A DNA stretch of 32,547 nt from Myxococcaceae bacterium. GTDB lineage: Bacteria > Myxococcota > Myxococcia > Myxococcales > Myxococcaceae. The stretch spans positions 1 to 32,547 of the forward strand of contig RPRB01000035.1 of the NCBI GenBank assembly GCA_003818285.1, given 5' to 3'. A model generated the notes under the pieces. The model was not told the DNA's origin. It searched no databases and was given only the letters and a program-made list of their open reading frames with translations. Below are positions 11,227 through 30,033 of this stretch, piece by piece. How positions within the stretch are numbered: the first letter of the stretch is position 1; each line of letters opens with the position of its first letter. The position numbers and the translations under genes are program-made.

Positions 11227-12315
<1,089 letters not shown>

Positions 12316-12346: not shown

Positions 12347-13558
12347 ATGCGCACACTGTTCGTTCTGCTCGCCGCGGTGGCCGGGATCCTGATGCCCGGC
12401 GCGGCCGCCGCCCAGGCGAAGCTGGTGGTCTGGCACTCCTACCGGGGCGGGGAGAAGTCCGCGTTCGAGAAGGTGGTGGGCGCGTTCAACGCCCGGCCCG
12501 ACACCAAGATCAAGGTCGACGCGCTGGCCGTCCCGTTCGACGCCTTCGCGGACAAGATCTCCGCCGCCGTCCCGCGCGGGAAGGGCCCGGACATCTTCAT
12601 CTACGCGCAGGACCGGATGGGCGGCTGGGTCGAGGCGGGCAACACGGTGGAGCCCATCGACTTCTACGTGGACGATGCGCTGAAGGGCCGCTTCATTCCC
12701 ACCACCGTCGAGGCGCTGACCTACCGCGGCAACCTCTACGGGCTGCCGCTCGACTACAAGGTCATCGCCCTCATCCACAACAGGAAGCTCTTGAAGACGC
12801 CGCCGAGGACCACCGGCGAGCTGGTGAAGGTGGCGCAGGGCCTGACCAACAGGCCCGCCGGCAAGTTCGGGCTGGCCTGGTCGTACGGTGACTTCTACTA
12901 CGTGGCCTCGCTTCTCAACGGGTTCGGGGGTGGCGTCTTCGACAAGGCCACCCGGCCGACGATGAACGCGCCGGAGAACGTGAAGGCGCTCGATCTGCTG
13001 GTGAAGTGGGAGAAGGCCGGGTTCATGCCCGCCGAGCCCTCCAGCGCCCTCATCACCTCGCTGTTCAACGAGGGCAAGGCGGCGATGGTGTTTAGCGGCC
13101 CGTGGTTCCTCGGCGAGGTGGCCAGCGACATCGACTACGGGGTCGCGCCGCTGCCCACCATCGACGAGGCGGGCGGCCAGCCGATGCGCCCGTGGATGAC
13201 CGTGGAGGGGGTGTTCGTCTCCGCGCAGTCGCAGCACAAGGACGCGGCCTTCGAGTTCGCGAAGTACGTGACCGGCGCCGAGGCCGGGAAGGTGATGGCG
13301 CTCGAGGGACGGCAGAGCCCGGCGGCGAAGGCGGTCTACGACGACCCCAAGGTTCAGGCCGACCCGGTGCTGAGCGCGTTCCGCAAGCAGGTCGAGGTGG
13401 CGGTCCCGATGCCCAACGTGGCGGAGATGACGATGATGTGGTCGCCAGCCACGACCGCCCTGAACAAGGTGAACGCCGGGAACTCGCCCAGGGAGGCGAT
13501 GGACGTCGCCCAGAAGGCGCTCCAGAAGGACGTCGACGCGCTGCGGAAGAAGAAGTGA
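12347..13558 (+). CDS. malE: maltose/maltodextrin-type substrate-binding protein
   Basis: The product is 403 residues with a classic signal peptide (LFVLLAAVAGILMPGAAAA, cleaved near 22) and AAGGAG just upstream of ATG at 12347. The mature part has the MalE-type fold marks: KLVVWHSYRGGEKSAFEKVV at the start, PDIFIYAQDRMGGW, YGLPLDYKVIALIHNR, KAAMVFSGPW and the YGVAPLPT strand. These closely follow enteric MalE, so maltodextrins are a sound guess for the ligand. It acts free in the periplasm, since it has no lipobox Cys. The next gene, malF, starts inside its stop codon. Its neighbours are all alpha-glucan genes, supporting that ligand. Confidence 0.93.
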   Translation: MRTLFVLLAAVAGILMPGAAAAQAKLVVWHSYRGGEKSAFEKVVGAFNARPDTKIKVDALAVPFDAFADKISAAVPRGKGPDIFIYAQDRMGGWVEAGNTVEPIDFYVDDALKGRFIPTTVEALTYRGNLYGLPLDYKVIALIHNRKLLKTPPRTTGELVKVAQGLTNRPAGKFGLAWSYGDFYYVASLLNGFGGGVFDKATRPTMNAPENVKALDLLVKWEKAGFMPAEPSSALITSLFNEGKAAMVFSGPWFLGEVASDIDYGVAPLPTIDEAGGQPMRPWMTVEGVFVSAQSQHKDAAFEFAKYVTGAEAGKVMALEGRQSPAAKAVYDDPKVQADPVLSAFRKQVEVAVPMPNVAEMTMMWSPATTALNKVNAGNSPREAMDVAQKALQKDVDALRKKK

Positions 13559-15477
13559 GCCCGGCCGGCCCTCCAGCCTCGCGGGTGCGATTCGGCATCG
13601 GCCTCCTGTTCGGGTTGCTGGTGGCTCTGGCCGGTGGCTGGGCCCTGCTCCTCGGCGCGCGCACGCAGCTGGAGGACGACTGGACCACCCGGCGGGCGAT
13701 CGTCGCCGTGAACGCGCTCGGCTCACTGGTGGGTCAGGCGACGGACGACGCGGGGGTACGGAAGCTGGTTTCGGCCTGGCAGGGGACGCATCCGCCTGGG
13801 ACCCGGGTGCGGGTCATCCGGGGCACCACGCTCGAGGCCTCGACCGATCCGGCCGACACCGGCGCGAAGGCGGCGCCGCGACGCCTGGCACGCGAGGAGA
13901 AGCCACTCTACGACCAGGCCCAGAGGCTCCGGGCGGGAGTGGACAGCAACCGCGAGGGAGGAGCTCCGAAGGCCGAGATCGAGGTGGAGCGCCAGGGTGG
14001 TGCGCGGCAGGTGGCGGCTCCCCTCGAGGCAGACGGGAAGGTCACCGGGATGGTGCGGTTGCTCGTTCCGGCGGAGCCGTCGACCGGCGGCCGGTCGCCG
14101 GTGCAGGCGGTGCTCCTCCTGGTGTTCGCGCTCGTCCTGTACGCGGTCGCGGCGTGGCTCCTGCCGCCGAGGACGGCGCTCCTGGCAACGGTGAGCACCG
14201 CGCTGTTCTGCCTCGCGGCGGCGTTCTTCGTCGGCGGCGAGCTACGGGCGCTGGGTCTCGCCGAGCGCGACGGCCAGCGGGCCCTGGCCTCGACGGTGGC
14301 CGCGGAGGTCGGGCGCGCGCGGGCGCTCACCGGAGCGAGCGCGATCGACGGCGGGGCGTGGGACACGGATCTCGCACGGAAGCCGCACGGTCTGGTGACC
14401 GGGGCGGGGGCGATCGATCGCGAGAAGGGGGAGGCCCAGGCGCAGCGGGTCCGCCGCGGCGCGCTCCGGAGCCTGCTGACCCTGGCCGCGCTCGGTCTGC
14501 TGGCTCTGGTGGTGGTGGGTTTCGGAGGCGCCCACCGGGTGGGGCGCGCGCTGGTCACCAACCGGCAGGCCTACGCGTACATCGCCCCGGCGATCATGGG
14601 AACGACGCTGCTGGTGTTCTTTCCCTTCCTCTACGGGATCGCGCTCAGCTTCACCGACTCGAACATCTACAACACCAACCTGCCGCTCACCGAGCTGTGG
14701 GTGGGGCTCCGGAACTACGCGACGATCCTCGGCGACTTCAGCTTCCTGCGCCGGGCGGCGGACGGGCACTGGGTCTTCAACTACCTGAACTTCTACTGGA
14801 CGTTCCTGTTCACGGTGATCTGGACGATCACCAACGTGGTCTGGGGCGTGTCGTTCGGGCTCCTCCTGGCGCTGGTGCTCAACACCAAGGGGCTCGCGCT
14901 CCGGCCGATCTACCGGGTGCTGCTGATCCTCCCCTGGGCGATGCCCAACTACATCACCGCGCTCATCTGGAAGGGGATGTTCCACCGGCAATTCGGCGTC
15001 GTGAACCAGGTCCTGGCGATCTTCGGGTTCGAGCCCCTGTCCTGGTTCGACACGCCATTCACCTCGTACCTGACGGCGCTGGCCACCAACGGCTGGCTGA
15101 GCTTCCCCTTCATGATGGTGGTCTCGCTGGGAGCGCTGCAGTCCATCCCCGCGGATCTCTACGAGGCGGCGCGGGTGGACGGCGCAAGCCGGTGGCAGCA
15201 GTTCCGGGCCATCACCCTGCCGTCGCTGAAGCCGGCGCTGGTGCCGGCAGTCATCCTCTCGGTGGTGTGGACCTTCAACATGTTCAACATCATCTACCTG
15301 GTGACCGCCGGTGAGCCGGGTGGCTCGACGGAGATCCTGATCACCCAGGCGTACAAGTACGCGTTCCAGCGGTACCAGTACGGCTACGCGGCGGCGTACG
15401 CGACGATCATCTTCGGCATCCTGCTGGTCTACGGCACCATCCAGAACCGCGTCACGCGCGCGACGGAGGCGCTCTGA
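13555..15477 (+). CDS. malF: maltodextrin ABC permease MalF with large N-terminal sensor-like extension
   Basis: GTG at 13555 overlaps the malE stop (GTGA) and gives 640 residues. The core permease is about 335-640, with six membrane helices (about 342-363, 412-441, 452-472, 512-530, 562-583, 609-630) and the EAA loop YEAARVDGASRWQQF (about 536-550) that docks on MalK. Before it lies a unit absent from typical permeases: a helix (about 13-34), a roughly 145-residue hydrophilic domain, two helices (about 183-203 and 206-227), a roughly 75-residue hydrophilic segment and one helix (about 306-325). With the N-terminus inside, both hydrophilic parts face the periplasm and the permease keeps its usual topology. 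The layout of a helix followed by an extracytoplasmic domain recalls sensor proteins. Enteric MalF instead has a periplasmic insertion within the permease. Confidence 0.9.
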   Translation: MSPAGPPASRVRFGIGLLFGLLVALAGGWALLLGARTQLEDDWTTRRAIVAVNALGSLVGQATDDAGVRKLVSAWQGTHPPGTRVRVIRGTTLEASTDPADTGAKAAPRRLAREEKPLYDQAQRLRAGVDSNREGGAPKAEIEVERQGGARQVAAPLEADGKVTGMVRLLVPAEPSTGGRSPVQAVLLLVFALVLYAVAAWLLPPRTALLATVSTALFCLAAAFFVGGELRALGLAERDGQRALASTVAAEVGRARALTGASAIDGGAWDTDLARKPHGLVTGAGAIDREKGEAQAQRVRRGALRSLLTLAALGLLALVVVGFGGAHRVGRALVTNRQAYAYIAPAIMGTTLLVFFPFLYGIALSFTDSNIYNTNLPLTELWVGLRNYATILGDFSFLRRAADGHWVFNYLNFYWTFLFTVIWTITNVVWGVSFGLLLALVLNTKGLALRPIYRVLLILPWAMPNYITALIWKGMFHRQFGVVNQVLAIFGFEPLSWFDTPFTSYLTALATNGWLSFPFMMVVSLGALQSIPADLYEAARVDGASRWQQFRAITLPSLKPALVPAVILSVVWTFNMFNIIYLVTAGEPGGSTEILITQAYKYAFQRYQYGYAAAYATIIFGILLVYGTIQNRVTRATEAL

Positions 15478-16361
15478 TGGCACCCTCCCGGCGCGAAGAA
15501 CGGACGCCGCACTGGATCCTGCACACGTTCCTGGCGGCGACGGTCATCTACACCGTGTACCCGGTGCTCTGGGTGCTCACCATCGCCTTCTCGGGGAAGC
15601 AGAGCCTGGCCATCGCCGACCTTCCGGCGGATCCGACGAAGCTGGACCGGTTCCGCGCGGTGCTGCCGTGGCCCACGCGTTTCGCCTTCGGCAACTTCAG
15701 CTCGGTGATGGCCGATCAGCCGTTCGCCCGGTGGATGCTCAACAGCGCCATCGTCGCCATCGGGGCGACCATCGTCGGGGTGGCGCTGTCCTGCACCGCG
15801 GCGTACGCCTTCAGCCGGTTCAAGTTCCCGGGCCGCCGGTTCGGGATGATGTCCTTCCTGGTCTCGCAGATGTTTCCCGGGACGCTGACCCTCATCCCGC
15901 TCTACATCATCATCGTCCAGTGGCTGGGCCTGGGCTCGACCCTGAGCGGGCTGGTCATCGTCTACGCCACGACCTCGATTCCCTTCTCGGTGTGGATGCT
16001 GAAGGGCTACTTCGACACCATCCCCAAGGAGCTGGAGGAGGCGGCGGTGATGGAGGGAGCGGGGCCGGGGAAGATCTTCTGGAGCATCGTGCTCCCCCTG
16101 GCCAAGCCGGCGATCGCCATCACCGCGCTGTTCTCCTTCATGACCGGCTGGAACGAGTTCATCCAGGCGGCGACCTTCATGGACAAGGAAGAGATGTACA
16201 CCGCGCCGGTGGGGCTGCGGTTCTTCGTCGGCGGGTTCCAGCAGCAGTGGGGCTACTTCGCCGCCGGTTCGATCATCGTCTCGATCCCGGTGGTGCTGCT
16301 GTTCCTCTACCTCCAGAAGTACCTGGTCTCGGGGCTCACCGCGGGCAGCGTGAAGGGCTGA
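15477..16361 (+). CDS. malG: maltodextrin ABC permease MalG
   Basis: The 294-residue inner-membrane protein has six helices, and its ATG overlaps the malF stop (TGATG), so it is made with malF. It has the EAA loop ELEEAAVMEGAGPGKIFW (about 182-199) that contacts MalK, and the typical MalG segments MMSFLVSQMFPGTLTLIPLY and FMTGWNEFIQAATF. It ends SGLTAGSVKG, very like the C-terminal tail that enteric MalG inserts toward the MalK dimer. With MalF it forms the translocation pore. It is the last gene of the operon; its stop codon forms part of a hairpin shared with the convergent gene. Confidence 0.95.
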   Translation: MAPSRREERTPHWILHTFLAATVIYTVYPVLWVLTIAFSGKQSLAIADLPADPTKLDRFRAVLPWPTRFAFGNFSSVMADQPFARWMLNSAIVAIGATIVGVALSCTAAYAFSRFKFPGRRFGMMSFLVSQMFPGTLTLIPLYIIIVQWLGLGSTLSGLVIVYATTSIPFSVWMLKGYFDTIPKELEEAAVMEGAGPGKIFWSIVLPLAKPAIAITALFSFMTGWNEFIQAATFMDKEEMYTAPVGLRFFVGGFQQQWGYFAAGSIIVSIPVVLLFLYLQKYLVSGLTAGSVKG

Positions 16362-16376
16362 GGTCCGCGGGCCTCA
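16359..16376. terminator. hairpin between convergent operons (candidate bidirectional terminator)
   Basis: TGAGGTC and GGCCTCA (one G-T pair) form a 7-pair stem around CGCG. The TGA stop codons of malG (plus) and of the convergent gene (minus) are the two feet of the stem. No T-run follows on either side, so termination by this hairpin alone is uncertain. Confidence 0.4.
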
Positions 16377-17525
16377 CTTCCCCTGTCCAGGCGGCGGTGT
16401 TCCGAACTCCACGCCCATCCCGGGACGGATCGCGTCGCCGCCCTCGACGGCGCGGCCCACGACCCCGCCCTCGATCACCTGCGTGACGATCACCCGGCCA
16501 ACGGCTGAGCCATCGGGGCCGAGGACCTTCCCGATCTGCATCACCCCCACGCCCTTGGTCGGACCCTTCATCGACACCACGCCGCCCGACACGTCGGCGA
16601 CCGAGAGCGCGGGGCCTGCCGGCTTCTCCACAATGGTGGTCACGGCGACCGGCGGCGGCGCCACGCCCGAGCCGTAGACGAAGGGCACCTGCGCGTAGGC
16701 GCCGGTCTTCTCGTCGAACGAGCCGAGCACCTTGGCCTGGCTCGCGCCCGCCGGGAGCAGCACGTCCACGACCCAGGGGTGCGCCTTCCCGCCCGCGGTC
16801 GGTGCCCCGCCGAACATCCACGCCTCGCGCACGCCGATGACCGGCATCGTGTACGCGTCCGCCTCGTGCCTGCTTGCGAGGCGGTCGACGACCGCGAAGG
16901 TCCGTTCCCAGCGCGCCCCGGAGACGTGCACCGAGTAGCCCCAGTCCTTCGTCGGCCGGGCGCCGAGGAAGCTCCAGGGAATCCGGGCGAAGATGGTCTT
17001 GCCCTGGGTCTGGAGGTTGGTGGGGAAGAGCACCCGGCGCGACGCCTCGTTCCCGAAGACGCCCTCGGTCACCGCGCGGGCCGCGCCCGGCTGCGGAGCC
17101 ATCACCACCGCGTACTCCCAGGTGTGCCCGTTGGCGAACGCCACCCGCCGCCCGGGGATGCACATGGACCAGCCCGAACCGGGCGTCTGGTCGGTGTCCA
17201 CGTAGATGTCGATGTTCTGGAAATAGATGTTGTTCTTCAGATCCAGCGGCGTCGAGTTGTAGCGCTGCGTGCTGGGAGGGACGCGGAAGTTCTCGCCGAG
17301 CGTCACCTCGAACACGACCTTGTCGCCCTCCTCGTAGACCGCGAAGCGTCGGAGGTCGAAGTCGCCGGGGAGGAAGTCAGTGTCGCCCGGTGGCTGGTAG
17401 GTGCCGGGCCCGTTCGCGTCCCCCGCCGGGTCGTCGAAGCTCGCGATCAGCGTTCGCTCGACCGCGCGCACCGGCGAGGCGAGCAGGAGCGCCGCGATGG
17501 CGGCGAGCGAGGAAACGAGGCGCAC
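16374..17525 (-). CDS. secreted protein with glucodextranase-C-like domain
   Basis: GTG at 17525, with GAGAAGG upstream, gives 383 residues with signal peptide VSSLAAIAALLLASPVRA. The mature protein opens with the pattern F-D-D-P-x-G-D-x-N-G-P-G-T-Y and then PGDFDLRRFAV, the hallmark of the beta-sandwich module found at the C-terminus of glucodextranase and some amylopullulanases (PF09985-like). Further family segments are IDIYVDTD, FARIPWSFLG and WGYSVHVSG. After about residue 300 a second small domain carries VGVMQIGKVLGPDGS and VEGGDAIRPGMGVEFG. It has no glycosidase motifs, so it probably binds alpha-glucan in the periplasm or at the surface. It is the last gene of the minus run and a paralogue of the product of 22126-22971. 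Confidence 0.8.
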   Translation of the reverse strand: MRLVSSLAAIAALLLASPVRAVERTLIASFDDPAGDANGPGTYQPPGDTDFLPGDFDLRRFAVYEEGDKVVFEVTLGENFRVPPSTQRYNSTPLDLKNNIYFQNIDIYVDTDQTPGSGWSMCIPGRRVAFANGHTWEYAVVMAPQPGAARAVTEGVFGNEASRRVLFPTNLQTQGKTIFARIPWSFLGARPTKDWGYSVHVSGARWERTFAVVDRLASRHEADAYTMPVIGVREAWMFGGAPTAGGKAHPWVVDVLLPAGASQAKVLGSFDEKTGAYAQVPFVYGSGVAPPPVAVTTIVEKPAGPALSVADVSGGVVSMKGPTKGVGVMQIGKVLGPDGSAVGRVIVTQVIEGGVVGRAVEGGDAIRPGMGVEFGTPPPGQGK

Positions 17526-17610
17526 GGGACGACCCTTCTCAGGAAAGGGAGGGGCCGGCAAGGCAGCGACGCCCAGCCGGCCCCCGGTGATGCCTTCAGC
17601 GGCCTGCCTT

Positions 17611-18678
17611 CTACGGAACCTCGATGAAGGTGTTGCCGCTGCCCAGACCCGTGCCACCGGTGATCTGCAGGGTCTGGTCGGTGAAGTCCGTGGCGCCCGT
17701 GGCCTTGGTGCCCGCGGTCACGCCGGTCTTCTCGGCCACCGCGTTGCTGTCCTTGTACTCCTTGCTGTTCGGAGCGGTCCCGAAGACGAAGATGAACTCG
17801 GGCCGGTCACCCGACTTGAGCAGGCCGGGGTAGGGCGGCGCGTTCTGGTTCAGGTTCTGGGACAGGACGTAGGTGTAGATGCCGTCAGCAGCCGTCGCGT
17901 CCCCGTGGGTACCGTCGTCGTGGAGGTCGACCTCGCTCCAGCCCCAGGCCGAGCCCTTCACCGCCACCCGGCTGGTGTCCCACGTGCCGGCGCCCAGGTC
18001 CCCGGTGTCGATGGTCAGCTTCAGGTCGATGGTGCCGTGCGCGGGGAAGGTCTGGCCCGCCGCGGTGATCGCCGCGGTCGCGCCGGCGTTCACCGTGAAC
18101 GAGCCGTTCGAGCCCAGCCACACCCAGCCGCCGTTCACGGTGTCGGGGTTGGTCGCGTCGCGCAGGCCGTACTCGTAGGTCTGCGAGGCGGTGGCCGGCG
18201 GCGTCACGAACACGGTCACGCCCAGCTTGTGGTCATTGGCCACGGCGTTCGCCGGCTCGTGCCCGCCCCTGTTCCAGGGCCCGTCGTCGTACAGCTTGGC
18301 CCAGGGGCCGGCCCAGGTGGAATCGAAGGTGACCTTCCGGGTGGTCGAGTCGAAGAGCATGGCTCCCTTCCACTCGAGCTCCTCGCTCCTCCACTGAGCG
18401 TTGACGCTGTCATCGACGGTGAAGTCGACCGCCACCGTGCCCGCCGGCTGCGCGAATCCGCAGACGTTGGCGACGCTGCCGCTGCTTCCGGTGCCGCAGG
18501 TCAGTCCGCTGGTGCAGGTGCCGCACGAGAGCTGGCCACCGCAGGCATCGCTGATGCTTCCGCAGGTCGCGTTCTGTGCGGCGCAGGTGGTCTTGGTGCA
18601 GTCGCCGCCGCCGTCGTCGCTGCTACATCCCGCCAGGAACGTGCCTGCCAGGATCAGGCTTCCGAGAATTCTCTTCAT
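17611..18678 (-). CDS. surface-type lipoprotein with Cys-rich linker (choice-of-anchor X-like)
   Basis: ATG at 18678 follows GGAGGAGA and gives 355 residues. The lipoprotein signal ends ILAGTFLAGC, followed by SSDDGGG. A Cys-rich linker comes next, with spacings such as TTCAAQNATCGSISDACGG, a pattern common in myxobacterial surface lipoproteins. The main part is beta-rich: KGAMLFDSTTRKVTF, then GTIDLKLTIDTGDLG, VDLHDDGTHGDATAADGIYT with an Asp-rich probably calcium-binding loop, and PEFIFVFG. This order resembles the 'choice-of-anchor X' proteins and starch-binding-like sandwiches. No catalytic residues are recognised. It lies 26 bases downstream of the next lipoprotein gene, so it is probably part of the glucan operon as a binding protein. 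Confidence 0.75.
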   Translation of the reverse strand: MKRILGSLILAGTFLAGCSSDDGGGDCTKTTCAAQNATCGSISDACGGQLSCGTCTSGLTCGTGSSGSVANVCGFAQPAGTVAVDFTVDDSVNAQWRSEELEWKGAMLFDSTTRKVTFDSTWAGPWAKLYDDGPWNRGGHEPANAVANDHKLGVTVFVTPPATASQTYEYGLRDATNPDTVNGGWVWLGSNGSFTVNAGATAAITAAGQTFPAHGTIDLKLTIDTGDLGAGTWDTSRVAVKGSAWGWSEVDLHDDGTHGDATAADGIYTYVLSQNLNQNAPPYPGLLKSGDRPEFIFVFGTAPNSKEYKDSNAVAEKTGVTAGTKATGATDFTDQTLQITGGTGLGSGNTFIEVP

Positions 18679-18704
18679 GCGTGCTCTCCTCCCTCGATTG
18701 TCGG

Positions 18705-20132
18705 TCACTGCGTACACGGAACGTTGATGGGCCCGATGCCCGTCGGCGTCGCGATTTCACTGTCACAGCTGCACGTATTGAAATTGTAAGTGTTCTCCCG
18801 GGCCTCCGGTCCGCAGCCGTGGAGATCGGTGGTCCAGGTGATCGTCCCGCCTCCGTTGAGGTTCAGGTTCGATGCGTCCTTGTTGGTCGCCTCGTCGGCC
18901 CAGCTCTCGTGGCGGTAGACGAAGCCGTCCCCGTTCACGTCCACCACCTCGAGGATTCGTGAGTTCCCTGGCCACTCCTCGCTGCCCGTCCAGAGCGCGC
19001 CCTTGGTGCCCCAGGTGAACTTGTAGCCGACCCGGAACACCCTTCCGGCGGAGGGATCGCCTTTGGGAATCACGAAGGATACGGTCCAGACGTTGTCTCC
19101 GGCCGTCTCGTCGCCATTGGATCCGTCGTCGTACATGGCGATCTGGTTGGGCGTGCTCGCCCCCAGCTGGCTGTTCACCGCGGGATCCTGGAGCGGAGAA
19201 TCCTTGTGCACCCAGCCGACGAAGAACATCGACTTGCCTGGCTTGTCGGTGGCCCACTTGAAGCGGTCCGAGGTCGAGCAGTTGCCGTTCTTGGCGCCGG
19301 GGTTGAAGTCGACGGTGAAGACCACTCGCAGGTTGTTCGGGTCGGGGCAACCGGCCGGCCGGAAGAGCTGCGCCACCTCGGCGAGCTTCTGGTCGAACGC
19401 CACCGAGTCGAGATCGACCCGGCCGTCTCCGGTGTAGTCGAACTGCTGGCGAGTGATCCAGCTGGGGCTCACCGCCCGCTGCTTCACGACGTAGTTCTCG
19501 TCGTACTGCGGGACGTTGAAGAAGTCGGCGGTCTGCTGACTCAGCGTGGGGTCGTACCGCTGGATGATGCGGGTCACGTAGCCCAGGAGCTCCTGCGTGG
19601 GCCCGGGTTGATCGAAGGCCTGGTAGATGAGGGTTCGCGTCCCGAGGTACGCCGTGGGCGTGACCTGCTTCAGTGACTGACCATCGGCGCTGAGCCGCGC
19701 CTCGACGATCATCGCCTCGGTGATGCTGCGCTCGTCCAGCTTCACGTCGGTGATCTTCGACTCCTCGCCGATCGACGGGACCAGCGCCCGGAGCGTGAGA
19801 TTGCCTCTGACTCCGGTCACCTCGATCATCGAGTACTTCGAGGACGGCAGCTGCACCTGGTACGAATCCCCGCCCGCGGACACCTCGATGCAGGACTTGC
19901 CCAGCTGCCACTCTCCCTGGAGGCAGGTCTGCATCGCGTTGCCCTCGGGGTCCATGGCGCCGAACTGGGAGGGCTGGGTGTCCTGCCAGTAAGCGGTCCC
20001 GCTGACCGCCGAGGCGGGCCGCGCGGTCTCGTTCCGGCCGAGGTTCCCGAAGCTCTCGATGCTGCATCCGGCGCAGAGGGCCGGAAGAACGAACAACAAG
20101 GTTCTCTTCGAGCGAAGCATACGCATCACCAT
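18705..20132 (-). CDS. lipoprotein of the glucan operon, probable binding role
   Basis: The product is 475 residues with lipoprotein signal LLFVLPALCAGC. ATG at 20132 (GAGG upstream) overlaps the beta-barrel stop; ATGs at 20126 and 20120 are alternatives. The N-terminal half holds strands such as SSKYSMIEVTGVRGNLTLRA, a segment common in outer-membrane carbohydrate-binding lipoproteins. The C-terminal half includes IAMYDDGSNGDETAGDNVWT, which matches the Asp-rich loop in the next gene's product (VDLHDDGTHGDATAADGIYT) and suggests related sandwich domains, followed by FRVGYKFTWG. No enzyme motif is seen. Its place right after the outer-membrane barrel gene suggests a partner of the barrel, a role like that of SusE/SusF, though no homology to those is claimed. 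Confidence 0.75.
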   Translation of the reverse strand: MVMRMLRSKRTLLFVLPALCAGCSIESFGNLGRNETARPASAVSGTAYWQDTQPSQFGAMDPEGNAMQTCLQGEWQLGKSCIEVSAGGDSYQVQLPSSKYSMIEVTGVRGNLTLRALVPSIGEESKITDVKLDERSITEAMIVEARLSADGQSLKQVTPTAYLGTRTLIYQAFDQPGPTQELLGYVTRIIQRYDPTLSQQTADFFNVPQYDENYVVKQRAVSPSWITRQQFDYTGDGRVDLDSVAFDQKLAEVAQLFRPAGCPDPNNLRVVFTVDFNPGAKNGNCSTSDRFKWATDKPGKSMFFVGWVHKDSPLQDPAVNSQLGASTPNQIAMYDDGSNGDETAGDNVWTVSFVIPKGDPSAGRVFRVGYKFTWGTKGALWTGSEEWPGNSRILEVVDVNGDGFVYRHESWADEATNKDASNLNLNGGGTITWTTDLHGCGPEARENTYNFNTCSCDSEIATPTGIGPINVPCTQ

Positions 20133-22111
20133 GCGACCTCGACGGTCCCCTTCGCGCGCCAGACGTTCCAGATCATGTTGTAGAAGCCGCCGGTGGGGTC
20201 ACGGAGGAGGTTCTTGTGGAAGTACTCCACCGTGTATCCGGCCAGAACTCCGCCGAAGGCATAGGTGAAGCCGGCTCGAGCGGTGTGCCGCTGCGTCCGG
20301 GCGGGGAAGTAGCCGGCGGCCTCCGAGCCGTTCCGGCCGTCCTCCGACCAGTGGCTGTACTCGTAGCCGGCAAATACCTTGAGCTCGTTGGTGGGCTGCA
20401 CCGTGACCTGACCGAAGAGCAGCCACGACCGGCCGATGTAGTCGTCCCTCGGGTTGCTGACGTTCCGGTTGTCCCGGTCGTAGATGTACTTGACCTTGAA
20501 GTTGAAGAGCGGGCTCCAGCCCACCGCGAGCGGCACCTGCGCGGTCAGCACGCCGATCTGCGTGTGCCGGTCCTGGTACTTGGTGTAGACGCTGCGCGGG
20601 TCCTTCCCCCGGTCGTAGACATTGGCGTAGTCCTGATCGGAGGTGTACGCCGTCGTGTCGGTGAAGCCGTGGGTGTACAGGAAGTCCGGGTACTGGTTCA
20701 CCGTGTCCCGGAGCTGCATGTTGGTGTTGTAGCCGACGTAGGTGTACTCGCCGGTCAGCTTCACCGAGCCCAGCACCTGCTCCAGCACCCCGGTGAAGCC
20801 GTGCCAGCCGATCACCGTCTCGTACCAGGGCTCGTCCCAGTCCTGGAACTCGTTGGCGACGTTGAGCGTGGGCAGCTGGCCGCCGCGGGTGAAGCCGCCG
20901 GTGATGATCCCGTCGGTGAGGAGCACGTCGGCCTCGCGCCGCGAGCCCATGATCGCGTTGTACTCGCTGCCGATGTTGAAGTACTCGAGCTTGGGCGACA
21001 GACCGATCTTGATGGGATCGTAGAACTCGAGGTCCACCTTCGCCGCCAGGCCGGTCGCGGAGATAGGGTTGCCGTTCGGGTCGGTCTTGAAGACGACCGG
21101 CGAGAAGCCCTGGCCGTTCCGGACCAGGTTCGTGGCGTAATTCGGGTTCACGTAATTGCTTGAGTACGCCCCCAGGGCCGAGATGGAAAAGAGGTCAGTC
21201 CAGGACGGGGTGTAGAACCCTTCCAGCGTGCCGTTCAGTCCGCGGAAGCGGGTCGCGAGCTTCGTCGAGTGATCTGGACACCCTACGGTATCGCAACGCG
21301 CCGCGTCGGGTGCCCCGGTGAGGAAAGGGCTGTAGCGGTCCGCTTCCCAGTCCTGCGTCCAGGTGCCGATCGCCCGGAGTCGCAGATCGTCGATGGGCCG
21401 GCTCTCCAGCTTGGCCGCGAACGCCCAGTCGGTCCCGTAGAGGTTGGCCAGCGGCTCGTTCGCGCTGAGGCCGGTGTTCCATCCCGGGCCGGCCCACAGC
21501 TTGGGCAGGGCCAGGGCGCCGACGGTGTAATCGAGCCGGCTCTGGGGAATGAACGAGCCCTCGATGAAGACCCCGTTCCCGTTGTCGCGATCGATGTAGC
21601 GCGCCTTCCCGATCGTCCACTCGTTCCACATCGAGTAGTCGGTCGAGCCGATGGTGATCCACCTCACGGTCGGGATCGGCGGCCCGAAACGGATCCACGC
21701 GGCGCGCAGCTTGATGTACTGCGCATGGTTCTGGCCCAGGCTCTCGCCGGAGGTGTCCCCGGTGTTCGGCGGATAGGCGATGTTGGGCTTGAGATCGCCG
21801 TTTTCCCACCAGTCCTGCCAGAGCATTCCCCAGCGGCTCTGCAGGCGGACCCCGGCGGTCACCTTCGGGCCCACGTTGGCCTTGATGTTGAGCTCGAACT
21901 CGCTGCACACGCCGTTGTGGCCGCCGATGTTGTCGCGCCAGAACGGGTTCGAGAGCGACAGACACCCTTGCGTGTTGTCGTTCTGGTACATGTACTTCAT
22001 GTAGATCTTCCCGCTCATCTCGAAGTTGGCGATGTCGGCGCGAGCGGCCGGACCCATCGTCAGCACACCGAGCGTGGCAATCGTCGCAAGTCCCCTCCCA
22101 GGTCTTGCCAT
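20126..22111 (-). CDS. outer-membrane beta-barrel protein (porin-like), glucan operon
   Basis: ATG at 22111, with GAGGGGG upstream, gives 661 residues with a signal peptide ending PAARA. The rest is dense in alternating hydrophobic and polar strands with many aromatic residues (GKIYMKYMYQND, WAFAAKLESRPIDDLRLRAIG, VKLTGEYTYVGYN, FNFKVKYIYDRDN, LKVFAGYEYSHWSEDG) and ends in a strand closing with Trp. This is typical of a large barrel, probably more than 16 strands. There is no plug domain or TonB box, so it is not a SusC-type receptor. It probably passes maltodextrins or anchors amylases at the outer membrane. The gene begins 14 bases after the upstream glucodextranase-C-like gene and overlaps the downstream lipoprotein start. 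Confidence 0.85.
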   Translation of the reverse strand: MARPGRGLATIATLGVLTMGPAARADIANFEMSGKIYMKYMYQNDNTQGCLSLSNPFWRDNIGGHNGVCSEFELNIKANVGPKVTAGVRLQSRWGMLWQDWWENGDLKPNIAYPPNTGDTSGESLGQNHAQYIKLRAAWIRFGPPIPTVRWITIGSTDYSMWNEWTIGKARYIDRDNGNGVFIEGSFIPQSRLDYTVGALALPKLWAGPGWNTGLSANEPLANLYGTDWAFAAKLESRPIDDLRLRAIGTWTQDWEADRYSPFLTGAPDAARCDTVGCPDHSTKLATRFRGLNGTLEGFYTPSWTDLFSISALGAYSSNYVNPNYATNLVRNGQGFSPVVFKTDPNGNPISATGLAAKVDLEFYDPIKIGLSPKLEYFNIGSEYNAIMGSRREADVLLTDGIITGGFTRGGQLPTLNVANEFQDWDEPWYETVIGWHGFTGVLEQVLGSVKLTGEYTYVGYNTNMQLRDTVNQYPDFLYTHGFTDTTAYTSDQDYANVYDRGKDPRSVYTKYQDRHTQIGVLTAQVPLAVGWSPLFNFKVKYIYDRDNRNVSNPRDDYIGRSWLLFGQVTVQPTNELKVFAGYEYSHWSEDGRNGSEAAGYFPARTQRHTARAGFTYAFGGVLAGYTVEYFHKNLLRDPTGGFYNMIWNVWRAKGTVEVAW

Positions 22112-22125
22112 GAGCGCGCTCCCCC

Positions 22126-22971
22126 TCACTTAGCCGGGTAGACCATCGGCACGACGGCGAGATCCTCGGGCTTCGGCTCCTTGGTGTCCTTCTTGAACTT
22201 GGAGAGGATCTCGTACTGCTTCTTGGCGGCATCGCCGTCCGGCGGGACCAGGATGTCCATCACGTGCGGGTCGTTGTCGTAGTCGCTCCCGCCGCCGAAG
22301 CGGTGCTGCCCCTCGAACTCGTTCACCTTCCGGGTGAGCAGATCCTTCTTGTCCGGGAAGCCCTCGTTGGACTGCATCAGCACCTGGTAGCCCCAGGTGG
22401 TCTGCGGCGGTCCGCCCAGCTGGGCGTTGTCCACCACCGCGATCAGCGTCTTGCCCTGGGCGCGGGTCACCTTGGGGACGATGATCTTCTCCTTCCACTG
22501 GGAGGCCTTGAGCCCGATCTCCGAGTTCACCCGCGTCGCGCCCTGGGGCGAGACGATGATCGCCCTGTCCCAGGCCTCATCCTCGGCGAAGCGCACGTTG
22601 GTCCCGGGCAGGCCGTCCTGGACCCCGCTGCCCTTCTTGTGGTCGGTGTCGATGTGGATGAAGGCCATCTGCACCGAGAAGCCGTTGCCGCCCCAGGCCG
22701 GGCTATCCCAGGGGTCCTCGATGCGGGTGCGTACCGTGATGCGGAACTCGGTCTGGTTCGCGCCGGGCACCACCTCGAAGTCGGTGATGTCGAACGAGCC
22801 CGGCTTGTACACCGCGTCGGTCGGGTAGGTGTAATTGCCCGGTCCCTTGTCGTCGCCACTCGGGTCGGAGAGCTTGAAGCCCTTCGAGTTCTCGGCGGCG
22901 GCGGGGGAGGAGAGCGCCAGGACCAGGAGCGGGGCGGCGGCGAGGAGGCGACGGAAGCTGGAGACGTTCAT
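22126..22971 (-). CDS. secreted protein with glucodextranase-C-like domain (paralogue)
   Basis: The 281-residue product starts at ATG 22971, which has an ideal AGGAGGA upstream and follows the amylase gene by 19 bases. The signal peptide ends LALSSPAAA. The mature part starts SDPSGDDKGPGNYTYPTD and then PGSFDITDFEVVPG, the same Asp-Pro/Gly-Asp/Gly-Pro-Gly pattern as in the product of 16374-17525. It goes on through FIHIDTDHKKGSG, WGYQVLMQSNEG and PHVMDILVPPDGD. It is one complete domain without the extra C-terminal module of its paralogue. The family occurs as a binding module of glucan enzymes, so soluble glucan binding in the periplasm, or delivery to the barrel made by the next gene, is inferred. 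Confidence 0.82.
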   Translation of the reverse strand: MNVSSFRRLLAAAPLLVLALSSPAAAENSKGFKLSDPSGDDKGPGNYTYPTDAVYKPGSFDITDFEVVPGANQTEFRITVRTRIEDPWDSPAWGGNGFSVQMAFIHIDTDHKKGSGVQDGLPGTNVRFAEDEAWDRAIIVSPQGATRVNSEIGLKASQWKEKIIVPKVTRAQGKTLIAVVDNAQLGGPPQTTWGYQVLMQSNEGFPDKKDLLTRKVNEFEGQHRFGGGSDYDNDPHVMDILVPPDGDAAKKQYEILSKFKKDTKEPKPEDLAVVPMVYPAK

Positions 22972-22990
22972 GCGATCCTCCTGGGAAGCA

Positions 22991-24646
22991 TCAGAGTGAG
23001 AGGAAGACGAAGCCCCGGGACCCGAGCCCCGGAACGGCAAGAGAGCCGGACCCGACGGTGGGCGTTCCGTCGAGCCCTTCCTGCAGGAGCACCGACGGCG
23101 CGCCCGAGACCTGCACGCTGAACGCCCCCGAGTCGGTGGTCCCCACGTTGGCGACGAAGAGGACCCGCTTGCCCGAGTCCTCGCGCAGCAGCGCCATGAC
23201 GCTCGCCGGAGCCCCGGAGAGCGCGGGCCGGGTCACGCTCCCCTTGGAGAGCGGCGTCTGCCCGTGGCGCAGCGCGATCAGCGTCCGGTAGAGGTGGAAC
23301 AGCGAGCCCGGATCGGCGCGCTCGGTTTCCAGATCGACGCCGGGGGCCTCGGGGACGTTCACCCACGGGACCCCGGTGGTGAAGCCGTGACCGGTTCCAC
23401 CGTCCCAGGGGTAAGGAGTCCGCTTGTTGCGGTCGTCCGCGCCGGCTCCGCCCTGCATCCCCAGCTCCTCGCCGTAGTAGACGAAGGGCGTCCCCGGGAC
23501 CGCGAACAGCACCGCCGCCGCCACCCGCGCCGCGGCGGCGTCATTGCCGAGCACCCGCATCACCCGCGGCTGGTCGTGGTTGGAGAGGAACGGTGCGTCG
23601 TAGCCGCGGTCCTTCCCGGCCAGCAGCTCGTCGGTCCGGGTGAGAGTGTTGACGATGTTGCTCGCATCGCCCGCAACCACCGCGGTCTTGATCGCGTCCG
23701 CCAGGTCGAAGGCGAAGCCCAGCTGGACCTCGTCGCCGTCGCCGTAATAGGTGAGGGCGATGTCCTGCACGGTCCACGCCTCGGCGACCAGCAGGGCGTC
23801 GGGATATTGCGCCTGGAGCTTGGCCCGGATCCGCTTGAGGAAAGCGTGGGTCTCGGGCTGGTCGGCCTGCCCGGCGTCGGCGGCGTTCTCGATGAAGTAG
23901 CGGACGGCGTCCAGCCTGAAGCCGTCGATGCCCCGGGCCAGCCAGAACTTCATCGTGTCCACCAGCTCGTCCTCGACTGCGGCGTTCGTGAGGTTGAGGT
24001 CCGGCATCCCGCTGGTGAAGACGCCGTAGTAGTACGCGCCGTTGAGATTCCACCAGGTGTGGCCGGATCCGAACGGCTGCAGCCACCCCGGGTCGTCGGG
24101 CCGCCACACGTACCAGTTCCGCTTCTCCGCGTCGGCGCCGCTCTGAGAGTTGATGAACCACGGGTGCTGCCGCGCCGAGTGGTTCAGCACCATGTCGATG
24201 ATGACCTTCACTCCCCGGCGGTGTGCGGCGGCCACGAACGCGTCGAGGTCCTGGACCGTGCCGTACTGGGAGTTGACGCCCCGGTAATCGAGCACGTCGT
24301 ATCCGTGGTAGCTCGGGGAAGGGTGGATGGGCATCAGCCAGACCGCGTCCACCTCGAGGTCGTCGCCCGTGCCTGCGTCGCCGTCGTTCAGCGCATCGAG
24401 GTGGGCGGTGAGGCCGGAGAGGTCCCCGATACCGTCGCCGTTCGAGTCGGCGAAGCTCCGGACGAAGATCTCGTAGAAGACCTTGTCCCGCCACCACCCC
24501 TGGGTGTTCGGGGTGATGCCCGCATCCGTCCCCGAGTCCGGCGTCCCCGAGTCAGGCTCCGTCGTGTTGCTCGAGCTGCACCCCGCCAGCAGCGCGAGCG
24601 CGGCGCACACGAGGAGGTGCTGACCCGTCTGTCGCGACCCAGCCAC
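22991..24646 (-). CDS. GH13 alpha-amylase-type lipoprotein
   Basis: GTG at 24646, with GGGGAGGGG upstream, gives 551 residues with lipobox ALALLAGC followed by SSSNTTEPDSG. The GH13 barrel begins WWRDKVFYEIFVRSF; SFADSNGDGIGDLSG is the usual calcium and loop motif. The catalytic residues are the nucleophile Asp in GFRLDAVRYF (about 246), the acid Glu in LLVAEAWT (about 289) and the third Asp in FLSNHDQPR (about 358). A beta-sandwich domain C closes the protein. It cuts alpha-1,4 glucosidic bonds, or transfers glucosyl units, outside the cytoplasm while anchored to a membrane. It is the first gene of the minus run of tightly spaced glucan genes and a paralogue of the upstream amylase. The exact subfamily is not assigned. 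Confidence 0.92.
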   Translation of the reverse strand: MAGSRQTGQHLLVCAALALLAGCSSSNTTEPDSGTPDSGTDAGITPNTQGWWRDKVFYEIFVRSFADSNGDGIGDLSGLTAHLDALNDGDAGTGDDLEVDAVWLMPIHPSPSYHGYDVLDYRGVNSQYGTVQDLDAFVAAAHRRGVKVIIDMVLNHSARQHPWFINSQSGADAEKRNWYVWRPDDPGWLQPFGSGHTWWNLNGAYYYGVFTSGMPDLNLTNAAVEDELVDTMKFWLARGIDGFRLDAVRYFIENAADAGQADQPETHAFLKRIRAKLQAQYPDALLVAEAWTVQDIALTYYGDGDEVQLGFAFDLADAIKTAVVAGDASNIVNTLTRTDELLAGKDRGYDAPFLSNHDQPRVMRVLGNDAAAARVAAAVLFAVPGTPFVYYGEELGMQGGAGADDRNKRTPYPWDGGTGHGFTTGVPWVNVPEAPGVDLETERADPGSLFHLYRTLIALRHGQTPLSKGSVTRPALSGAPASVMALLREDSGKRVLFVANVGTTDSGAFSVQVSGAPSVLLQEGLDGTPTVGSGSLAVPGLGSRGFVFLSL

Positions 24647-24745
24647 CCAGACATCCCCTCCCCGGGAAACCTTCTCCGGCCGTCGCGCGGACACGCCTGC
24701 ACGAGTGCTCGTACCGCTTCGCGACTCTGGAAACGGTCGCTTTTA

Positions 24746-24879: not shown

Positions 24880-26538
24880 TCAGAGCTTGAACGCAGCGCT
24901 CGAGAACGGCGGCAGCGACAGTCGCACGGCACTGCCCTCGCGGGTGGCGCTCACCCCATCGGCCGCGAGGAGGGGCTCGGCGCGCGTTCCCTCCAGTTCG
25001 AGCACCAGCGTCCGGGGCTCCTCGCCGAGATTGTGCGCCACCAGGACGCGCTCCGAAGCGTGGGTCCGGACGAAAGCGAGCACCGGCCCCTCGGCCTGGA
25101 GCAGCCGCAGCGTTCCGCGCGACAGGGCCGGCGAGGCATGCCGCGCCCGGATCCACCGGCGGTAGTGCGAGAGCAGCGAGCGGGGGTCCCCGGTCTGTGC
25201 CGCGACGTGGGTCGCGTCCTGGCCAGGCGCGAAGCGGTACCACGGGGTGCCGGGCGTGAAGCCGCCCCCGGCGCTCCCGTTCCACGGCATGGGCGTGCGC
25301 TTGGCCTCGTCGCCGTCGGCGGTGCCGTTCAGGAGTCCGATCTCCTCCCCGTAGTAGAGGAACGGCGTCCCAGGCAGGCTGAGGAGGATGGCCGCGGCGC
25401 TCCGGAGCTTCCCCGGGTCTCCCTTGAGCACCGTCGCCACCCGCCGCATGTCGTGGTTGGTCAGGAAGGGGACGTCGGTGGCACCCGGGGGATAGGTCTC
25501 GGCGATCTCCCGTAGCTTCGCGGCGATGCTCTTCGACTCTCCGACCTGCACGCCCTCGAGGATCTTGCTGGCCAGGGGGAAGTCGAAGTTGAGAGGGAGA
25601 TCGCCGTAGTAGGCGGCGATCGCCGGCGTCTCGGTCCAGGCCTCGCCCACCAGGACCGCATCCGGGCGAACGCTGCGGACGTGGGCGGCGAACTCCTTGA
25701 GGTAGGCGTGCGTCTCGGGCGTGTCGCTCTGGCCGGCGTCGGGACCGTCCTCGACCAGGTGGCGGATCGCGTCCAGCCGGAAGCCATCGACCCCGCGCGA
25801 GAGCCACAGCGCCGCGAGCCGCTTCGCCTCCGCCCGCACGGCAGGCGTGCGAAAGTTTAGGTCCGGCATCCCGGCCCAGAACAGGCCATAGTACCAGGCA
25901 CCGTTCTTCTTGTGCCACGTGCTCCCGGCGGCGTTCCACGGTTGAGGCCAGTGAAGCTCGGTGGGGCTCCACACGTACCAGTCGCGCTTCGGCGAGCTCG
26001 GTCCCGAGGCGGACTCGATGAACCAGGGGTGCTCCCGCGAGGTGTGGTTGAGGACCAGATCCACGATGACCCGCATTCCGCGCCGGTGCGCCTCGTCGCA
26101 GAGCCGGCGGAGATCCTCGTTGGTGCCGTAGTCCGGATTGACCCGCTCGTAATCGGTGGTGTCGTAGCCGTGGTAGCTGGGCGAGGCGAAGACCGGCATG
26201 AGCCAGAGCGCGTCCACCCCGAGGTCCTGGTCGGTCTCGGGCTTGCCGTCGTTCAGGTAGTCGAGCCGGGAGAGGAGCCCGGGCAGGTCGCCCTTCCCGT
26301 CGCCGTTCGAGTCCTGGAAGCTCCGGACGAAGACCTCGTAGAACACCGCGCCGTTCGCCCAGCTCTCGTCGGTCCGCGGCGGCGCCGAGCCCGGCGTGGT
26401 CGGCGCCGGCGGTCGTGACGCGGTGCAGCCGAGCACCGCGGCCAGCGCCAGCAGCGCGCTGAAGAGCACGCGGCGCGTCGAGCGTGCGCCGTGTTTGCGT
26501 TGCCGGCGAACTCCGTTCGGTTCAATCTGCGCCGCCAT
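24880..26538 (-). CDS. GH13 alpha-amylase-type lipoprotein (paralogue)
   Basis: The 552-residue product starts at ATG 26538, preceded by GGGGAG. The signal is unusually long: about 23 polar and basic residues, then VLFSALLALAAVLGC with Cys near 37. The barrel opens SWANGAVFYEVFVRSF and SFQDSNGDGKGDLPG. The catalytic residues are Asp in GFRLDAIRHL (about 256), Glu in LVGEAWT (about 299) and Asp in FLTNHDMRR (about 363). Domain C follows. It is clearly related to the amylase at 22991-24646 and probably arose by duplication. A gap of 233 bases with its own candidate promoter separates them. Its start codon overlaps that of the divergent pullulanase, so its promoter must lie within the pullulanase gene unless the real start is further downstream. 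Confidence 0.9.
   Translation of the reverse strand: MAAQIEPNGVRRQRKHGARSTRRVLFSALLALAAVLGCTASRPPAPTTPGSAPPRTDESWANGAVFYEVFVRSFQDSNGDGKGDLPGLLSRLDYLNDGKPETDQDLGVDALWLMPVFASPSYHGYDTTDYERVNPDYGTNEDLRRLCDEAHRRGMRVIVDLVLNHTSREHPWFIESASGPSSPKRDWYVWSPTELHWPQPWNAAGSTWHKKNGAWYYGLFWAGMPDLNFRTPAVRAEAKRLAALWLSRGVDGFRLDAIRHLVEDGPDAGQSDTPETHAYLKEFAAHVRSVRPDAVLVGEAWTETPAIAAYYGDLPLNFDFPLASKILEGVQVGESKSIAAKLREIAETYPPGATDVPFLTNHDMRRVATVLKGDPGKLRSAAAILLSLPGTPFLYYGEEIGLLNGTADGDEAKRTPMPWNGSAGGGFTPGTPWYRFAPGQDATHVAAQTGDPRSLLSHYRRWIRARHASPALSRGTLRLLQAEGPVLAFVRTHASERVLVAHNLGEEPRTLVLELEGTRAEPLLAADGVSATREGSAVRLSLPPFSSAAFKL
26507..26519. promoter_or_regulatory. inverted repeat next to the divergent amylase and pullulanase starts
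   Basis: CGAACTCCGTTCG has perfect 5-base arms around TCC. It lies 18 bases before the pullulanase ATG and inside the first codons of the divergent amylase. It could be an operator for the pullulanase operon; this rests on symmetry and position only. Confidence 0.25.
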
Positions 26539-29500: not shown

Positions 29501-30028
29501 CCCAGCGCGGGCAAGGACTCGGCGAACTGGCCGACCATCCAGCCGATCTTCGCCGACGCGAGCATCGCCCCCGGCGCGGCGGACATCGCGAAGATGTCCG
29601 CCCACGTCCAGGCGATGCTGAAGCTCCGGAAGGCGTCGCTTCTCTTCCGGCTCCGGACCGCGGCGGAAGTCTACAAGCGCGTCGACTTCACCAACGCCGG
29701 GCCCAACCAGCTGGAGGGGGTCGTGGTCATGACCCTCAGCGACCAGGTGGCCTGCACGGGTGGCGACCTCGATGCCGCCCGGAGCGGCATCGTGGTCATC
29801 ATCAACGGTGGGACCTCCGCCCGGGACGTCACCATCCCCGGCGTCACCAGCGGCGCGTTCACCATTCCCACCGCGCTCGACAACGGAGCGGACCCCCTGA
29901 TCACCGGGCGCGCAACCTGGAACGGCACCACCGGCGTGTTCCACGTCGAGGGCCGCACCACCGCCGTCTTCGAGCGGCCGCAGGCCGAGACCGACGGTGT
30001 GCCCTGCAACACCAAGCCCCACCCGTGA
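26537..30028 (+). CDS. pulA: pullulanase-type GH13 lipoprotein
   Basis: The product is 1163 residues with signal SILVVAAAVAGC (Cys at about 24) followed by SSNDDNQG. Two CBM41-like starch-binding modules come first (about 37-235): FTLHYHRALADYSGWNV and VAVYYKRPDSNYSGWGLHTW share the S-G-W pattern. An N-terminal GH13 sandwich (WAPTAQAVKLHV) leads to the barrel, with the FNWGYDP motif (about 625) that is diagnostic of pullulanases. The catalytic residues are Asp in GFRFDLMG (about 745), Glu in YLYGEGWD (about 774) and Asp in VSSHDN (about 908). It debranches alpha-1,6 bonds of pullulan and amylopectin outside the cell or in the periplasm. ATG at 26537 or 26558 is possible; neither has a clear ribosome site. 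It is the first gene of a plus-strand operon. Confidence 0.94.
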   Translation: MRAPLSRMWTRCSILVVAAAVAGCSSNDDNQGTPDSGSPTSSSFTLHYHRALADYSGWNVAVSAGADETSASAAGNDNFGAVYQLHVRSGAAQLAFTLVNGSSTDAAGNLTVDVSGTIREAWVFSGYATAITHQPVAIPGDNQVAVYYKRPDSNYSGWGLHTWGDVVQETQWTAPLQPVGVDPDLGQGFLINVKPSAARVNIIVHKGDTKDPGPDMGWDLATLGDIVFVSSGSANITAFPKRPEDASIDGAAAHLVEPLLVAWDVTDAAATSFELRYSSTAFIAASGTDVTGGETIPLTPSPSGLPPAVLTKAPYLNTGGTPWRAFTIAAADEGKVKDALKGQVIAVARKGDGSVLKATQVQTAWAIDALYTYSGPLGVAFDPSNVPTVRLWAPTAQAVKLHVADQTKHEIAAVDMTEDANGVWSATGDASWYTNYYRFEVTVFHPATGRIETTTVTDPYAVNLDTNGLWGQLIDLDDPSTKPSGWDGLTKPTLNAPEDIVVYEGHIRDFSAMDSTVSAANRGKYLAFTETGSDGMQHLAMLAGSGLTHFHLLPAFDFATVNEDPAQRVDVGQPFSDLCSKNSAVPSALCTQFESTSVLEAIKSYPGDSEQQQAIAGYLAGLDSFNWGYDPFHYGSPEGSYASTAEGTAKILEFRKMVQGLAGVELRTVMDVVYNHTNAAGLSDKSVLDKIVPGYYHRLDPTTGFVLNSSCCSNTASEHAMMEKLMIDTLVRWARDYKVDGFRFDLMGLHLKSNMLQIRDALAAVNPTIYLYGEGWDMGEMVRGGRGVAANQINMAGTGIGTFNDRLRDGARGGGPFDGASDLRRNQGFSSGLYNDPNELSTADPTTKSRLANALDLVKIGMAGGLTNFPMVLASGTTSVAGAVGYNGVSAGYTSDPQELINYVSSHDNQILWDIVQYKMPTGRSMDDRVRAAALAIDVVLLGQGIPFIPMGDDLIRSKSMERDSYDSGDWFNRIDWTGGSNGWKSGLPSAGKDSANWPTIQPIFADASIAPGAADIAKMSAHVQAMLKLRKASLLFRLRTAAEVYKRVDFTNAGPNQLEGVVVMTLSDQVACTGGDLDAARSGIVVIINGGTSARDVTIPGVTSGAFTIPTALDNGADPLITGRATWNGTTGVFHVEGRTTAVFERPQAETDGVPCNTKPHP

Positions 30029-30033
30029 GCCCG

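Follow-up and report, generated by a model that had tools for sequence, protein, structure and literature searches.

What does the permease subunit of a maltodextrin importer do with some 335 residues placed ahead of an ordinary MalF core? This question is raised by the malF-like gene of a 32,547-nucleotide stretch of DNA (hereafter the window), which is positions 1 to 32,547 of contig RPRB01000035.1 from a 5.77-Mb Myxococcota assembly (GCA_003818285.1) whose closest named relative is a Myxococcaceae metagenome-assembled genome. The extension had first been described from the letters alone (the sequence-only reading), with coordinates that proved right: residues 1-335 precede a core of residues 337-640. 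Our answer, which we hold tentatively, is that the window encodes a maltodextrin-type (CUT1) ATP-binding cassette (ABC) importer in which MalF has a built-in periplasmic Cache module, and that this module would serve as an input and docking domain in place of the P2 loop of enteric MalF.

The gene lies in an operon of the order malK-malE-malF-malG, which supplies the substrate-binding protein, second permease and ATPase expected of a CUT1 importer. The same order with a separate malE was found in 57 of the loci scored. In the window, the stretch from malK to malG yielded no regulator gene, in line with what the sequence-only reading had stated for this ABC operon.

Fold and position of the N-terminal module

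When the 640-residue MalF was compared with Pfam, only BPD_transp_1 (PF00528) was recovered, at residues 431-635 (E = 3.6e-24), and Pfam, NCBIfam and PDB sequence searches gave no match of the N-terminal region to a sensor family. Moreover, a fold search with the whole protein listed permeases only, because the core fills the list, and residues 1-206 were therefore modelled alone. With an alignment of 61 sequences, AlphaFold2 (all models being of single chains) produced a structure with a mean predicted local distance difference test score (pLDDT) of 92.7 and a predicted template modelling score (pTM) of 0.82. The model has a helix leaving the membrane (8-61), two further helices (65-76 and 113-133), a five-stranded antiparallel PAS-like sheet (strands 84-89, 92-96, 143-147, 150-159 and 162-171, pLDDT ~95) and a transmembrane (TM) helix at 182-202. 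Nearly all of the 50 PDB neighbours listed for it (Foldseek, VIA-align; VIA Z 9.8-14.3) belong to the Cache/PDC-type sensor domains of receptors, including those of WalK/YycG, CitA, TlpQ, PctA/PctC, Tlp3, Mlp24, DctB, KinD, CqsR and TlpC. Among them, TlpQ (6fu4) matches with Z 12.8 over 121 residues at 2.6 A, WalK (5is1) with Z 11.9 over 126 residues at 2.5 A, and CitA (1p0z) with Z 11.4 over 118 residues at 3.2 A; the top neighbour, 9a5d (Z 14.3), is an integrative model of WalK-YycH and not a crystal structure.

Cache domains are structurally related to PAS domains, from which their long N-terminal helix sets them apart, and a single Cache domain is defined by such a helix directly extending the first TM helix (Upadhyay et al., PMC4822843). 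In our model, helix 8-61, with its hydrophobic part at 17-28, extends TM1 in this manner, and hydropathy brackets the domain by two TM helices, TM1 and TM2. We assign it to the periplasm because of the MalF core and because of MalE fusions in relatives (see below), whose MalE must be periplasmic. By this structural definition, residues 1-206 as modelled are a single Cache domain. The Pfam Cache cut-off was not reached, with one of 62 members giving a weak sCache_3_2 match (E = 0.053 at full length, 0.0029 for the domain alone); sequence detection is not a structural criterion, though any assignment at family level would be provisional. The domain has so far gone unannotated because sequence models miss the Cache fold.

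The extension had been taken for a membrane-anchored extracytoplasmic sensor-like module, with Cache, PAS and CHASE named as folds to be compared with residues 1-335. A receptor sensor fold, Cache, is indeed what the model and its PDB neighbours point to, for residues 1-206; the remainder fell short of that expectation, as residues 207-322 were modelled as only two long helices and a short periplasmic hairpin. No PAS or CHASE match was seen among the Pfam families shown at E up to 1 or 10.

We then considered where the module sits in the permease. The best profile match of the core is MalF in the PDB (E = 1e-67), MalF is also the best match by fold, and 109 of 292 aligned residues are identical to those of E. 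coli MalF. The cut-off of the NCBIfam MalF equivalog was not reached (189.6 of 392 bits), because that model includes P2. By structural alignment, model residues 311-640 correspond to E. coli MalF 37-510, with residue 311 opposite MalF 37 in 9bcr_H and residue 325 opposite MalF 49 in 3puy_F; in one alignment, residue 7 is matched to MalF 18, which identifies TM1 with TM1 of E. coli MalF. The Cache domain, TM2, TM3 and the hairpin are therefore located between the equivalents of MalF TM1 and TM2. P2 is absent, the loop being 47 residues long in the window (family median 46, range 30-50), and since in E. coli it occupies another site, the module was rightly described as unlike the P2 loop of enteric MalF.

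Family-averaged hydropathy put the TM centres at approximately 17-28, 185-198, 214-222 and 309-324, and the first TM helix of the core at 345-362 (Table 1). The topology anticipated by the sequence-only reading is thereby recovered: a helix, a periplasmic domain of 147 residues, two helices, a second periplasmic segment of 78 residues and a last helix. On the cytoplasmic side, TM2 and TM3 are joined by only about 3 residues, which leaves no space for a cytoplasmic output domain in the MalF chain. The view that the second periplasmic segment is also part of a sensor found no support, as it is a small helical hairpin of no recognised sensor fold which two Anaeromyxobacter proteins do without.

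In those two proteins (L071 and L079) the segment is cut to 15 residues, versus about 80, with the Cache domain kept. They represent a natural deletion of the second periplasmic segment.

Table 1. Positions of the malF-like gene, its parts and its neighbours in the window (nucleotides; residue numbers refer to MalF).
Feature	Position	Strand	Remarks
malF-like gene	13555..15477	+	640 aa; GTG start overlapping malE stop (GTGA), its last two bases inside the TGA
TM1 (residues 13-34)	13591..13656	+	first half of the long helix continuing into the Cache domain
predicted single Cache (sCache-like) periplasmic domain (residues 35-181)	13657..14097	+	AlphaFold2 pLDDT ~95; PDB neighbours
conserved motif PRRLxREEKPLYD (residues 108-120)	13876..13914	+	alignment of 62 sequences
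TM2 (residues 182-203)	14098..14163	+	hydropathy, AlphaFold2 model
TM3 (residues 207-228)	14173..14238	+	hydropathy, model
second periplasmic segment, helical hairpin (residues 229-306)	14239..14472	+	conserved W269-D270-x-D272
TM4 (residues 307-328)	14473..14538	+	equivalent to E. coli MalF TM2
MalF permease core without P2 (residues 337-640)	14563..15474	+	Pfam, profile and fold matches
malK-like ATPase	11227..12315	+	ABC_tran, OB_MalK, TOBE_2
malE-like binding protein	12347..13558	+	SBP_bac_1
malG-like permease	15477..16361	+	second permease subunit
Glucodextran_C (PF09985) protein, apparently secreted	16374-17657	-	adjoins mal operon
667-residue protein of outer-membrane-barrel look	20126-22129	-	signal peptide, C-terminal aromatic residue, no Pfam family
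Glucodextran_C (PF09985) protein, apparently secreted	22126-23040	-	near mal operon
two alpha-amylase family proteins	22991-24694, 24880-26670	-

Conservation and MalE-MalF fusions in relatives

A tblastn search with one genome per species found 349 relatives, and within the order the N-terminal part was matched in 52 of 145 genomes. The best 80 of the 349, on which our statements about phyla and abundance outside Myxococcota are based, come from Myxococcota, Acidobacteriota, Pseudomonadota (Burkholderiales, Gallionella, Chromatiales and others), Bdellovibrionota (Bdellovibrio) and Cloacimonadota, and include finished genomes and cultured strains (Anaeromyxobacter oryzae, Archangium, Corallococcus). 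Overall, 62 relatives from several phyla align across the N-terminal part, and the long N-terminus is present in nearly all intact relatives, the short ones being interrupted or cut at contig ends. The "fusion" of the sequence-only reading, for which a search in other genomes had been advised, is not peculiar to this one and represents the standard form of a broad MalF family. Matches of 2500-2850 bp in the same search, considered as longer proteins, were rejected, since they consist of MalF and the adjoining malG.

Against a same-genus relative, the Cache domain and the second segment had ratios of nonsynonymous to synonymous substitution rates (dN/dS) of approximately 0.24 and 0.23, respectively, and the core one of 0.064, which indicates that domain and segment are translated and constrained, though more loosely than the core. 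The most conserved Cache residues are S96, T97, D101, P108, R109, L111, R113, E115, K116 and D120, of which K116 and D120 are invariant in all 62 aligned sequences; the patch runs from the end of strand 2 into the beginning of the helix that follows it. A profile of residues 1-206 hit a single site per genome, always in the MalF frame, both within the phylum (58 of 195 genomes, with no more than 15 candidates scored in each) and in 16 of 16 further genomes (no more than 150 candidates scored). No kinase or chemoreceptor bearing this Cache subfamily was seen in the 195 and 16 genomes searched. Judging from these profile matches, the subfamily is tied to MalF.

A different arrangement was observed in about 58 other genomes of the order, which have a MalF core 51-60% identical to that of the window and no Cache profile match. 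In 19 of the 20 such loci fetched (L139-L158 except L147), MalE is fused to MalF; the remaining one, L147, carries a Cache domain of divergent sequence. The operons of these 19 fusions have the order K-F-G, with neither a separate malE nor a detectable Cache domain. In most of them, the fused MalE ends about 50-60 residues ahead of the core, which is the site of the Cache module in the window family; in L140, L141 and L156, a longer linker or additional domain of 160-208 residues separates MalE from the core. The window MalF is not itself a fusion of this kind, as it has a separate malE and an N-terminal region without a match to substrate-binding proteins. In the best core trees, the MalE fusions fall inside the Cache-MalF family in two places, and the differing linkers of the two groups fit a separate fusion event, although a single origin was not rejected by the approximately unbiased test (p-AU 0.127) and the root of the tree is uncertain, E. 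coli MalF and five short myxobacterial permeases forming very long branches. Altogether, the fusions and the Cache relatives mean that, in one permease tree, the same site is taken up in some members by a Cache module, MalE being encoded separately, and in others by MalE.

Possible functions of the module

The fold, the position, the absence of P2, the conservation and the operon were established by computation, while sensing of the sugar or of the loaded binding protein, as suggested by the sequence-only reading, is our inference. In the substitution for P2 that we tentatively prefer, the Cache module would meet sugar-loaded MalE, and possibly also a ligand in the Cache pocket; helices TM2-TM4 would hand its state on to the translocator and to the MalK dimer, and ATP would be spent only when sugar is on offer. 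As only a few residues join TM2 and TM3, such a signal would act within the membrane on the transporter, and not through a separate cytoplasmic pathway of MalF. We favour this substitution for four reasons: P2 is missing; MalE can occupy the site in relatives; P2 of E. coli reportedly contacts MalE and conveys to MalK whether substrate is present; and binding proteins are known partners of Cache-type domains. The periplasmic domain of LuxQ, which is of the Cache type, binds the binding protein LuxP. For P2, going by the titles of E. coli studies cited in PMC3328499 and PMC7756565 (on its function, that of Grote et al. 2009), the loop reportedly stays bound to MalE during the whole cycle and signals to MalK that substrate is available.

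Several points weigh against a P2-like role. In mirror-tree distance correlations, MalE is not singled out as the partner of the Cache domain (partial r = 0.24 for Cache-MalE, p = 0.01; 0.47 for Cache-MalK). In addition, the MalE fusions may have lost the Cache domain as a side effect of the deletion from which they arose, and the loss would then be no evidence of a shared task. The conserved residues appear from the alignment to cluster at the usual small-ligand site of Cache domains, which fits a sensor of a free ligand equally well. Moreover, the AlphaFold2 models are of single chains, and contact with MalE is therefore putative.

A sensor of a free ligand is the main rival. Here, the Cache pocket would bind a periplasmic small molecule (maltodextrin or another metabolite) and tune transport via TM2-TM4 independently of MalE, which we regard as possible but somewhat doubtful. 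The fold is that of ligand-binding sensor domains, but WalK, among the nearest folds, is not known to have a settled small-molecule ligand, which counts against this explanation. The conserved patch seems to lie roughly where dCache_1 receptors bear the amino-acid motif YxxxRxWY, with E-K116-P-L-Y119 resembling RxWY (PMC9901441 for the motif). On the other hand, for Cache domains, which no other extracellular sensor of prokaryotes exceeds in abundance, the outputs surveyed are signal-transduction proteins only, not transporters (PMC4822843). If this explanation were true, the transporter would have an outside-facing site of allosteric control.

It is unlikely that the module acts as a scaffold, binding a periplasmic component of the same alpha-glucan locus (the Glucodextran_C protein) and holding the importer in a larger uptake assembly. 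The genomic association is strong: within the order, 51 of the 52 genomes with Cache-MalF have Glucodextran_C, compared with 4 of the 93 others and none of the 58 with a MalE-MalF-type core (Fisher p = 3.6e-33, uncorrected for kinship, so that among related genomes it overstates independence), and the barrel-like protein in 44 of 52, 3 of 93 and 0 of 58, respectively. Among the 53 loci longer than 12 kb, the former is a neighbour in 48 and the latter in 44. However, genes of the same pathway travel together without their products touching, and four Anaeromyxobacter-type genomes (G013, G014, G015 and G019) have the Cache form without the barrel, which is therefore not needed.

As to the neighbouring genes themselves, the barrel-like protein is a possible alpha-glucan porin, judged by its sequence features. 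A pullulanase-like gene at 26396-31851 (+) appears to be split, its two frames (26396-30028 and 27943-31851) overlapping, which points to a frameshift or to a fault in the assembly. Two genes for secreted or lipoprotein-like products without a Pfam family, at 17611-18717 (-) and 18705-20132 (-), occur in 7 related loci only.

We consider it very unlikely that the module is a structural leftover which only helps MalF to fold or insert and plays no part as an input. The faster evolution of the Cache domain and hairpin relative to the core, and the shortening of the hairpin in Anaeromyxobacter, would be in agreement with it; the invariance of K116 and D120 across phyla, the strong conservation of the polar patch, purifying selection and the retention of the module in several phyla argue against it.

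Finally, an annotation artefact, with translation beginning near residue 329 and the upstream part not made, deserves hardly any credence: a start codon with a ribosome site near residue 330, for which the sequence-only reading had advised looking, does exist (GTG at 14539, residue 329, with GGAGG 10 nucleotides upstream), but a start codon stands in that column in just 9 of 62 aligned proteins, any start with a Shine-Dalgarno-like site at 324-340 occurs in 11 of 62, and the sequence ahead of it is conserved at the protein level, with a fold predicted at high confidence. As the internal start is rarely conserved, the long product is the conserved one, and for the family the artefact is already refuted by conservation in the alignment; in this one genome, the internal start could be used as well.

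Comparison with known systems

The window MalF shares its permease core with MalF of E. coli (MalFGK2; PDB 2r6g, 3puy, 9bcr). In the eight-helix E. coli protein, TM1 and TM2 precede the core, and the same holds here once the Cache module and its two TM helices are set aside. In E. coli MalF, the P2 of about 180 residues separates TM3 from TM4, and no large domain separates TM1 from TM2, whereas the window MalF shows the reverse. It is conceivable, if short of probable, that a transporter and a Cache receptor domain have been coupled directly in a single protein that both senses and transports, a periplasmic ligand or loaded MalE setting importer activity allosterically by binding to the Cache domain, and that this solution arose apart from P2.

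Bdellovibrio bacteriovorus reportedly has a MalE-MalF fusion transporter. A fusion of this type has been studied experimentally, to go by the title of Licht et al. 2019, Res Microbiol 170:1-12 (cited in PMC7756565). It has in common with the window MalF a large periplasmic N-terminal domain joined via a TM helix before the core, and the myxobacterial MalE-MalF fusions belong to the permease tree of the window MalF. The domain of the fusion transporter is the binding protein itself, while the window MalF carries a Cache domain and three more TM helices, with MalE separate. In MalG1 and MalG2 of Thermotogales, which are likewise maltose permease subunits, TM1 and TM2 are separated by a large hydrophilic region (PMC2246101); that case concerns MalG, not MalF, and a much longer region of about 500 residues, described there as having no similarity to known proteins.

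With single Cache receptors (CitA, WalK and chemoreceptors), the module shares the fold, the N-terminal helix continuous with TM1 and a TM2 that follows the last strand. The outputs differ, being kinase, chemotaxis or cyclic-nucleotide modules in the receptors and an ABC permease in the window. The Cache domains of animal calcium-channel alpha2delta proteins (gabapentin receptors) also touch a transport protein, and offer a loose parallel (PMC9901441). The parts are known; in the open-licence literature searched, we came across no ABC permease described as bearing a Cache domain, nor the combination reported here.

With a Cache domain built into an ABC permease, the output would be the transporter, and the arrangement, which is conserved in several phyla, suggests that the transporter detects by itself either a signal from outside or its binding protein. 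As the maltose importer is the best-studied ABC importer, regulation by an outer domain is testable with known assays. Nature moreover supplies the comparisons, namely, within one permease tree, a Cache module with a separate MalE, a MalE fused in its place, a hairpin present or reduced, and besides these the P2 of E. coli, and together they may show what an importer that depends on a binding protein needs on its outer face.

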